A stretch of DNA of 64,000 nucleotides from an uncultured cyanobacterium (lineage in GTDB: Bacteria > Cyanobacteriota > Cyanobacteriia > PCC-6307 > Cyanobiaceae), in NCBI GenBank assembly GCA_903823115.1, contig CAIJRN010000029.1, forward strand, positions 1 through 64,000. Reading direction: 5' to 3'. The position numbers were made by a program, and so were the translations under genes. This document shows, one piece after another, positions 12,790-15,924 of the stretch. How positions within the stretch are numbered: position 1 is the first letter of the stretch; each line of letters begins with the position of its first letter. The notes under the pieces were generated by a model, which was given only the letters and a program-made list of their open reading frames with translations, searched no databases and was not told the origin of the DNA.

Positions 12790-13893
12790 GTGCCCCTGCT
12801 TCGAGCTCTGCAGCGCCTGGGCCACAGGCCCACGATGCAGGACTGGCCGGGCTTGATCGAGGCCTACCGCTCCTGGCTGCCGGTGTCGTCCGCCACGCCG
12901 GTGATCACCCTGCACGAAGGGGCCACGCCGTTGATCCCGGCCCCGGTGATCGCCGAACGCATCGGCCGCGGCGTCAAGGTGTTCCTGAAATACGACGGCC
13001 TCAACCCCACCGGCTCCTTCAAGGACCGGGGCATGACGATGGCGATCAGCAAGGCCCGCGAAGCCGGTTCGGAAGCGGTGATCTGCGCCAGCACCGGCAA
13101 CACCTCAGCGGCCGCCGCCGCCTACGCCCGTCGCGGTGGCATGCGCGCCTTTGTGCTCATCCCCGACGGCTACGTGGCCCAGGGCAAGCTGGCCCAGGCC
13201 CTGCTCTATGGCGCCGAGGTCCTGGCGGTTCAGGGCAACTTCGACCGAGCCCTGGCCATCGTGCGCGATGTGGCCGATCGCTATCCGGTCACCCTGGTCA
13301 ACTCCGTCAATCCCTATCGGCTGCAGGGCCAGAAAACCGCCGCCTTTGAAGTCGTGGATGCCCTCGGCGAGGCCCCCGACTGGCTCTGCATCCCCGTCGG
13401 CAATGCCGGCAACATCAGCGCCTATTGGATGGGCTTCCAGGAGTACCAGGCCGCTGGCCACTGCCGCAAGCTGCCGCGGATGATGGGTTTCCAGGCCGCC
13501 GGTTCGGCGCCACTGGTGCTCGGCCACACGGTGGAGCAACCCGACACCATCGCCACGGCGATCCGGATCGGTAACCCGGTCAACCGCGAGAAAGCTCTCA
13601 AGGTGGAAGCCGAAAGCAAGGGGGGGTTCATGGCCGTCACCGATGCCGAAATCATCGACGCCTACAAGCTGCTGGGCCATGGGGAAGGCATCTTCTGCGA
13701 GCCGGCCAGCGCCGCCTCGGTGGCCGGCCTGCTCAAGCGGCACCAGGAGGTGCCGGCCGGAGCGACGGTGGTCTGTGTGCTGACGGGGAACGGTCTCAAG
13801 GATCCGACCACCGCGATTGAGAACAACGATTCCAAATTCCATACCGGTCTGCCCCCTGAAACCGATGTGGTGGCAAAGGTGATGGGCTTCTGA
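12790..13893 (+). CDS. thrC: Threonine synthase
   Basis: KYDGLNPTGSFKDRGMTMAISKA PLP-binding motif, CASTGNTSAAAAAYARR, VGNAGNISAYWMGF. Confidence 0.97.
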   Translation: MPLLRALQRLGHRPTMQDWPGLIEAYRSWLPVSSATPVITLHEGATPLIPAPVIAERIGRGVKVFLKYDGLNPTGSFKDRGMTMAISKAREAGSEAVICASTGNTSAAAAAYARRGGMRAFVLIPDGYVAQGKLAQALLYGAEVLAVQGNFDRALAIVRDVADRYPVTLVNSVNPYRLQGQKTAAFEVVDALGEAPDWLCIPVGNAGNISAYWMGFQEYQAAGHCRKLPRMMGFQAAGSAPLVLGHTVEQPDTIATAIRIGNPVNREKALKVEAESKGGFMAVTDAEIIDAYKLLGHGEGIFCEPASAASVAGLLKRHQEVPAGATVVCVLTGNGLKDPTTAIENNDSKFHTGLPPETDVVAKVMGF

Positions 13894-14167
13894 GCCAGCC
13901 GGCCGACCAACCCCGCACAGAGCGACCGCAGCCGCAGTAGCTGCTGAAGAACGCTGCCTGCAATCAGGGCGTTTCCAGGGAGTGGCTGCTGGGCGGTGCT
14001 GCTCGCTTTCCCGTCGCTCTGGCGTCTGAGACCGATGAGGTGGCAAAGGGGATGGGCTTCTGAGCCAGCCGGTCAGCCCACCTCCGACTGAGCAGCTGCA
14101 GCCGCCGTAGCTGCTGAAGAACGCTGCCTGTGATCAGGGCCCTCCCCTGACGTGGTCGCTGGGCGGT
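13856..14167. repeat. Diverged tandem duplication, unit about 142 bp or more, offset exactly 170 bp (13856-13997 and 14026-14167)
   Basis: Both units read ctga(a/g)accgatg(t/a)ggtggcaaagg(t/g)gatgggcttctgagccagccgg ... gtagctgctgaagaacgctgcctg ... gctgggcggt. The first unit begins inside the thrC 3' end. Confidence 0.85.
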
Positions 14168-14459
14168 ACACGGCCCTGTTCCCCCCTGGGGAGTGGCTCG
14201 CAGCGCAGTTGCGCCCGCGCCTGTCCCTCGATGGCGCCACCTGCCGGCGGCAGTTCGAACCGCCGCGGACGTGCGGCGGCATGGCTTGATCAGGCCCTGA
14301 GAACGGTGTGAACAGGGTCGTTCAGCGCTGCATCCGCGTTCCGATGGAACCGTTCACGCCGCCATGGCAGCAGCAAACCAGCCGGCAAAGCGTCTGAGGG
14401 AGACCTGGGGAATTCAGGCCCTCAACACTGGTAAAACAACCGGAGAGTTTCACCCCCCA

Positions 14460-14645
14460 GAACAAGCCTGTTTTCCCCATTCAGGGGAAACGGTGGAAAA
14501 GCGGATTTAACGCCTTTGGTTCAGCGGCGATTTCCCCAGCCGTGACGCGACAATCGCTAGATGGCGCAAGGGTTTTGGATTGTTTCTGCCGTTTTCCACC
14601 GCCTCTACTACGGCTCAAGATTTCTTTTTTTTAAAAATCAATCCT
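14460..14645. other. oriC: Candidate chromosomal replication origin (oriC) core upstream of dnaN
   Basis: DnaA-box-like sites: TTTTCCCCA (14471-14479), TTTTCCACC on the minus strand (14492-14500), ATTTCCCCA (14530-14538), TTTTCCACC (14592-14600); then the A/T tract tttcttttttttaaaaatcaat (14621 on); 7-bp hairpin TTTCCCC-attca-GGGGAAA at 14472-14490; noncoding gap before dnaN. Confidence 0.6.
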
Positions 14646-14760
14646 TCTTGAGCAGAAGAACAGGATCAGCGGATGGGCCCGGGACGTTGCGCTTTTGACC
14701 AGCGTGTGAAACCGTAGGCCCGCCCATGACATCGCCCCGGGCAGGCCAGGACCCCCACCC

Positions 14761-15924
14761 ATGAAGCTGGTCTGCTCCCAGACCGAACTCAATGCCAGCC
14801 TTCAGCTGGTGAGTCGGGCTGTGGCTTCACGGCCGACCCATCCGGTCCTGGCCAACGTTCTGCTCACGGCTGATGCGGCCACCGGGCGATTGAGCCTCAC
14901 CGGCTTTGATCTCAACCTCGGTATCCAGACCAGCTTTGCGGCCGCAGTCGAGAGCAGTGGTGCGATCACCCTGCCCTCGCGGCTGTTCGGCGAGATCATC
15001 AGCCGCCTGTCCTCGGACAGCCCGATCACGCTGAATTGCGTCGAGGGCGAAGAGGTGGTGGAGCTCACCAGCCTCTCGGGCAGTTACCAGATGCGGGGGA
15101 TGCCCGCCGACGACTTCCCCGATCTGCCCCTGGTTCAGAGCGGCACCCCGATCCGCATCGATGCTGAAGCGCTGGTCAAGGGGTTACGCGCCACCCTGTT
15201 CGCCAGCAGTGGCGATGAGGCCAAGCAGGTGCTCACCGGCGTGCATCTGCGCCTCGATGACGACGGATTGGAGTGCGCCGCCACCGATGGTCATCGCCTG
15301 GCGGTGCTGCGGTTGGCCAACATCACCGAGCCAGCCGCTGCGGCGGCCAAGGAGCTGGTGGAAGGGGAGCCCTTCGCCGTCACCGTGCCGGCCCGTTCTC
15401 TGCGTGAACTGGAAAAATTGCTCAGCGGCCGTCCCAGTCATGAGCCGCTCAGCCTGTTCTGCGATCGCGGCCAGGTGGTGGTGCTCTGGGCCGATCAGGT
15501 GCTGACCAGCCGCATCCTCGACAGCGCCTACCCCAACTACCGCCAGCTGATCCCGGAGTCGTTCAATCGCCGCATCGTCGTCGATCGCCGTGGCTTCGCC
15601 TCCGCCCTGGAGCGGGTGGCCGTACTGGCGGATCAGCACAACAACGTGATCAAAATCAGCAGTGATCCCGTTGCCGGCAAGGTGATGATCCGCGCCGATG
15701 CCCAGGATGTCGGCAGTGGTGCCGAATCGCTGGCGGCCGAGATCAGCGGCGAGGAGATCGACATTGCCTTCAACGTCCGCTACCTGCTCGACGGTGTCAA
15801 GGCGATGGCCTCCGATCAGGTGGTGTTGCAGTGCAACGCCCCCACCACCCCGGCGGTCCTGGCGCCGGTGGGTGAGGAGAATCCCTTCACCTATCTGGTC
15901 ATGCCGATCCAGATCCGCAGCTGA
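14761..15924 (+). CDS. dnaN: DNA polymerase III subunit beta (sliding clamp)
   Basis: MKLVCSQTELNASLQLVSRAVASRPTHPVLANVLL... ending TYLVMPIQIRS. Confidence 0.98.
   Translation: MKLVCSQTELNASLQLVSRAVASRPTHPVLANVLLTADAATGRLSLTGFDLNLGIQTSFAAAVESSGAITLPSRLFGEIISRLSSDSPITLNCVEGEEVVELTSLSGSYQMRGMPADDFPDLPLVQSGTPIRIDAEALVKGLRATLFASSGDEAKQVLTGVHLRLDDDGLECAATDGHRLAVLRLANITEPAAAAAKELVEGEPFAVTVPARSLRELEKLLSGRPSHEPLSLFCDRGQVVVLWADQVLTSRILDSAYPNYRQLIPESFNRRIVVDRRGFASALERVAVLADQHNNVIKISSDPVAGKVMIRADAQDVGSGAESLAAEISGEEIDIAFNVRYLLDGVKAMASDQVVLQCNAPTTPAVLAPVGEENPFTYLVMPIQIRS

Follow-up and report, generated by a model that had tools for sequence, protein, structure and literature searches.

The chromosomal replication origin of Synechococcus elongatus lies beside dnaN, as has been confirmed experimentally (PMC3480399, PMC7198777), and the DnaA protein of this species unwinds its own scaffold of boxes plus trios in vitro (PMC8287927). 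The species-specific DnaA box of the phylum is TTTTCCACA (PMC4674748). GC-skew profiles are irregular in many cyanobacteria, and some members of the group manage without DnaA (PMC7198777).

The DnaA-trio has the consensus 3'-GAT-5', and the search for basal unwinding systems (BUS) has relied on at least three consecutive A-centred trios, 3'-NAN-5' (PMC8287927). Roughly 15% of origins were scored in the published survey as having no BUS. In Bacillus subtilis, the G at trio position 1 is captured by Arg202 and Glu228 while position 3 is uncaptured, and cryo-EM work proposed the amino group on the central base as the feature that DnaA reads (PMC10721633). In vitro, C at the central position supports unwinding as A does, whereas G, T and U fail to, and in vivo C is the best-tolerated central substitution; this tolerance is attributed to Asn187, which contacts the amino group (PMC10721633). 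The possibility that other DnaA proteins take other sequences has also been raised (PMC10721633).

The thrC-dnaN spacer

The window (the whole stretch of 64 kb that was analysed) lies on a contig of 148 kb (C29) from a Cyanobium-like picocyanobacterium, the genome of which is in 86 contigs totalling 3.42 Mb. Among named loci, the closest are records of Synechococcaceae and Cyanobium. Two plus-strand open reading frames, thrC on the left (threonine synthase, 12790-13893; TIGR00260, 325 bits) and dnaN on the right (DNA polymerase III beta clamp, 14761-15924; TIGR00663, 325.5 bits), enclose an intergenic region (13894-14760) which, as in the dnaN-adjacent origins of other cyanobacteria, is directly upstream of dnaN. 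The dnaA gene of this genome is on a different contig. The first-pass annotation had proposed the spacer (14380-14700) as oriC, and both a conserved cluster of DnaA boxes and a switch in strand composition now support this; the spacer is very probably the chromosomal replication origin. Anatomy, conservation, the skew switch, the presence of DnaA and the conservation of its trio-reading residues were observed directly, and from homologous systems we infer DnaA dependence, binding, unwinding and actual initiation at the spacer. The points that speak against an origin are the degenerate boxes, a decayed distal box in the putative unwinding module, weak GC skew in relatives and the existence of cyanobacteria that can dispense with DnaA (PMC7198777).

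An Rfam scan of the spacer found no known RNA, and nothing resembling the region was found among phage records. The segments 13845-13997 and 14015-14167 form a direct repeat of 153 nt (80% identical, spacing 170), which copies the 3' end of thrC and sequence downstream of it, so that a partial thrC copy lies within the spacer. Among the related loci, CALPNT020000155.1 is titled Bifidobacterium breve; its organism label is probably wrong, since its dnaN is cyanobacterial and 93% identical to that of the window.

DnaA boxes and their conservation

The four 9-mers, the hairpin and the A/T tract that had been singled out earlier are all present at their reported positions. The 9-mers are TTTTCCCCA (14471-14479, plus strand), TTTTCCACC (14492-14500, minus strand), ATTTCCCCA (14530-14538, plus strand) and a second TTTTCCACC (14592-14600, plus strand), the last recognised from its sequence and conserved in relatives. 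Mean column identities of the first three are 0.89, 0.89 and 0.79, the value for the first being taken over 30 relatives, where the rest of the spacer stands at 0.55; two near relatives (L004 and L035) have TTTTCCACA in place of ATTTCCCCA. Four further features had been overlooked: a degenerate minus-strand box (14483-14491), recognised from the alignment (mean column identity 0.83) and in tandem with the box at 14492-14500; a weak minus-strand box AATTCCCCA (14406-14414; 0.67), where relatives have TTTTCCCCA; the DnaA-trios at 14605-14616; and a conserved block at 14686-14716. The hairpin TTTCCCC/GGGGAAA (14472-14490) exists mostly because two boxes face each other in opposite orientation.

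As had been remarked, the boxes deviate from TTATCCACA; the fitting reference for a cyanobacterium is TTTTCCACA (PMC4674748). The window contains no perfect TTTTCCACA box; within 200 bp it has three that differ at a single position, together with weaker ones. Three of the 9-mers fit the pattern TTTTCCMCM, which has no other site in the 64 kb; the three lie within 130 bp of one another. With an expectation of 1.25, and with three or more sites reached in 12 of 100 shuffles, their number is unremarkable; their clustering, by contrast, is unusual.

The first-pass annotation had called for the cluster to be compared across relatives, and it is kept within the genus and also in marine Synechococcus, Prochlorococcus and distant cyanobacteria. 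Boxes occupy the same positions upstream of dnaN in relatives: TTTTCCCCA near -290, a minus-strand TTTTCCACC/T near -269, and TTTTCCACC at -169; at -232, the place of ATTTCCCCA in the window, relatives carry TTTTCCACA. In a 30-sequence alignment the box columns have a mean identity of 0.81 and the remaining spacer columns one of 0.55; when the box set was moved along the spacer, 301 offsets gave the box value only twice, counting the true offset. Most of the outgroup and distant cyanobacteria sampled have 4-14 near-perfect TTTTCCACA boxes upstream of dnaN, which suggests that the genus holds an eroded form of an ancient box array.

Strand composition

Because the genome is in 86 pieces, skew was analysed in the first 144 kb of its own contig and in sampled stretches of two single-contig relatives from the same genus (G022 and G019). 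On the contig, the cumulative minima fall at 15607 for GC, 11035 for T-A and 13966 for GC and AT combined, within a few kb of the spacer, as an origin there would predict. Neither the skew nor the conservation condition by which the first-pass annotation would have been refuted was thus borne out, as far as the data reach. In G022 and G019, the AT-skew step fits best at dnaN among 168 and 184 positions, respectively, and the value at dnaN was matched by none of 300 permutations in either genome; for the best position anywhere, the permutation value is 0/300 in G022 and 0.057 in G019. Like other dnaN-adjacent cyanobacterial origins, the spacer therefore coincides with a strand-composition switch, one that is seen in AT skew while GC skew alone is weak. 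The latter gives permutation values of 0.07 and 0.057 at dnaN, and its single best position is 0.15-0.5 Mb away; it was set aside as too weak to locate an origin in these two genomes, in agreement with the irregular GC-skew profiles of many cyanobacteria (PMC7198777).

The vicinity of dnaA was also considered as the origin site and rejected. The AT-skew fit at dnaA is below zero in both relatives, the boxes nearby are isolated single hits, and no cluster comparable to that of the spacer was found near dnaA in either. The first 16 kb of both genomes, which start from dnaA, have the highest GC skew sampled (0.080).

A probable box-trio unwinding module

The last plus-strand box belongs to a module, TTTTCCACC-GCCT-CTA CTA CGG CTC-AAGATTTCTTTTTTTTAAAAATCAATCC, the sequence of which has the layout of a BUS, that is, DnaA box, DnaA-trios and unwinding element. 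Its proximal box (14592-14600) is preceded by a decayed distal one, TTTCTGCCG (14583-14591, plus strand), which is of the TTTTCCAC type in many relatives, and is followed by a 4-bp spacer, GCCT (14601-14604), of constant length in 90 relatives. Four trios on the minus strand come next (14605-14616; top strand CTA CTA CGG CTC, trio strand 3'-GAT GAT GCC GAG-5'), and then an A/T-rich tract (14619-14643), a candidate DNA unwinding element that is A/T-rich at the same place in relatives. With the box ending at 14600 and the first trio starting at 14605, the distance between them is inside the 16 bp allowed for a BUS, and the A/T-rich element is beside the trios, as such a system requires.

A weight-matrix scan finds box, 4 bp, trios and A/T tract, ungapped, upstream of dnaN in 90 of 91 relatives, the one failure being a Halothece locus. 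The best shuffled control scores 9.1 bits, most real sites exceed 20 and the weakest accepted has 15.0; a leave-one-out scan blind to trios 2-4 gives the same placement in 90 of 90. The only genomic match to TTTTCCNC-N(2-7)-CTACKA is the one at 14592-14610. The run of trios is four when C is allowed at the centre, while the longest run of A-centred trios, in any register within 16 bp, is two. Judged from its sequence, the site is thus laid out like a BUS and probably works like one, without formal membership under the A-centred criterion.

In a group of Prochlorococcus (L073-L095), both BUS boxes are A-rich (TTAACCACA GAAACCACA) and the four trios are still near-perfect CTA repeats. This box drift runs in the opposite direction to that of the GC-rich relatives.

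Between the A/T tract and dnaN there is a conserved block of 31 bp, GTTGCGCTTTTGACCAGCGTGTGAAACCGT (GTTGCGCTTTTGACCAGCGTGTGAAACCGTA; 14686-14716, plus strand), unique in its own genome. With a mean column identity of 0.86 it is as well conserved in the genus as the boxes, and it is recognisable in marine Synechococcus; it is probably a promoter or leader element of dnaN. Many relatives have CTGTGGAAGC as the second half of the block, which on the minus strand gives CTTCCACAG, resembling a DnaA box, and the block may be either the dnaN promoter or a far-side DnaA site. Its promoter-like or leader-like appearance, together with gene regulation being among the roles of DnaA boxes, would suit the idea that the conserved motifs of the spacer serve a DnaA-regulated dnaN promoter or leader while replication starts elsewhere, for example near dnaA. 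We regard this as extremely unlikely: in the two complete relatives the switch in strand composition coincides with dnaN rather than dnaA, and the boxes near dnaA are isolated single ones; trios beside a box and an A/T tract are a signature of unwinding rather than of a promoter; and box arrays on two strands are kept even in distant cyanobacteria.

The DnaA protein

DnaA is present in all 40 genomes. The protein of this genome carries the residues that read trios: Glu183, Asn187, Ile190, Ile193, Arg202 and Glu228 are identical to those of B. subtilis (residues as in PMC10721633), and the Asn196 position, which sits at the uncaptured base, has Asp. An altered box specificity through domain IV of DnaA was considered and rejected, the signature GGKDHSTV being close to the GGKDHTTV of other cyanobacteria, with no sign of change.

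Cytosine-centred trios

The location of the origin is as cyanobacterial genomics would predict, and the pattern of the trios is more informative. The centres of trios 2-4 in 47 Cyanobium/Synechococcus origins comprise 54 A, 81 C, 6 T and no G. On the trio strand, position 1 of trios 1-4 is G in nearly every case, and T or C predominates at position 3. Almost all centres are A in the 36 Prochlorococcus and the 7 other cyanobacteria compared. The sequences thus indicate that in the GC-rich Cyanobium/Synechococcus group the trios are drifting from 3'-GAT-5' to 3'-GCN-5'. This evolutionary pattern and the structural rule from B. subtilis agree position by position.

The effect on detection is considerable. 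With at least three A-centred trios demanded, 5 of the 47 origins pass in register and 12 in any register within 16 bp; 43 pass when the centre may be A or C. Of 201 family genomes, 23 from 8 genera contain a fully C-centred pattern (at most one mismatch), each a single time, and its reversed control has no match in the 201. In five genomes of the same genus the coordinates place the site just upstream of dnaN, and in three it is at the first bases of contig 1; the location of C-centred sites rests on these genomes, the remainder of the 23 being counted by pattern only. A broader degenerate pattern was set aside because chance hits to it were too numerous in GC-rich genomes. For cyanobacterial or C-centred trios, the literature covered, which left most subscription journals outside, yielded only general surveys.

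GC pressure by itself might produce such repeats, in which case the site would be oriC and its C-centred repeats neutral drift that DnaA does not read as trios. The repeats are found mainly in GC-rich lineages and trio 5 onward is unconstrained, as this would predict. Against it stand the substitutions themselves. Parsimony on the DnaN tree gives 9, 6 and 11 changes at the centres of trios 2, 3 and 4 (changes treated as independent, in 47 related origins of which some are from metagenome assemblies). At neutral sites T-C differences exceed T-G differences more than twofold (223 vs 94 at four-fold sites of dnaN, 99 vs 42 in the spacer), so that drift should have yielded G on the trio strand, yet the corresponding top-strand C is absent from the centres of trios 1-4 in all 47 origins despite at least 26 centre changes (trios 2-4). 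Unread drift is accordingly unlikely. The preferred reading, to which we give a probability of about three in four, is that this lineage has working origins whose trios have repeatedly changed from 3'-GAT-5' to 3'-GCN-5', a natural case of the C-for-A tolerance known for B. subtilis DnaA.

A further alternative is a relict origin, a site that served as oriC in ancestors and whose boxes have decayed in this lineage, with replication now largely DnaA-independent or multi-site, as in Synechocystis. It would account for the lack of a perfect TTTTCCACA in the spacer, the decayed distal box and the irregular GC-skew profile of the complete relatives, and DnaA-independent cyanobacteria do exist (PMC7198777). 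This explanation is very unlikely given that every genome keeps DnaA, that AT skew still indicates a single origin, and that box and trio columns are clearly constrained in the genus; because the trio changes also follow the recognition rule of DnaA, the protein appears still to read the site.

For a working origin, the following sequence of events is proposed. DnaA would bind the cluster of degenerate boxes, of the TTTTCCACA type and on either strand, within 14406-14600. From the last plus-strand box an oligomer would grow across the 4 bp that separate this box from the trios and along the minus strand of 14605-14616, its AAA+ domains capturing the first two bases of each trio, 3'-GA or 3'-GC. 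The adjoining A/T tract would then open, allowing helicase loading and the departure of two forks, which would pass through dnaN and thrC, respectively. Within the GC-rich lineage, position 1 of the trio would stay G and position 2 would tolerate A or C.

If C-centred trios do serve in working origins, the real trio code is 3'-G[A/C]N-5', and these origins escape surveys in which three A-centred trios are required. The central bases of dozens of natural origins vary almost solely between the two that bear an amino group, with the captured G kept and the uncaptured third base variable. Such variation supports the DnaA recognition rule from the side of evolution, supplies ready substrates for a direct test, and suggests that origin-finding software should admit C-centred trios where genomes are GC-rich.

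Comparison with known systems

The locus is a known kind of origin, and its trios are a natural and testable variant. Like oriC of S. elongatus PCC 7942, it adjoins dnaN, is apart from dnaA and has TTTTCCACA-type boxes (PMC3480399). It differs in that the latter has 11 boxes with the TTTTCCACA sequence, while those of the window are fewer and degenerate (TTTTCCCCA, TTTTCCACC); in the window, moreover, trio 3 is C-centred and the left neighbour is thrC. The cyanobacterial origins of DoriC/Ori-Finder share the dnaN neighbour, the box cluster and the A/T stretch, although these predictions centre on TTTTCCACA, perfect copies of which are scarce in the genus of the window (PMC4674748). With the B. 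subtilis BUS (DnaA boxes 6 and 7 plus DnaA-trios) it has in common a plus-strand box or tandem, a spacer of about 4 bp, 3'-GAT-5' repeats, A/T-rich DNA and a DnaA with conserved trio-reading residues. Unlike that system, the window has a decayed distal box and only two consecutive A-centred trios, the longer run requiring C at the centre.
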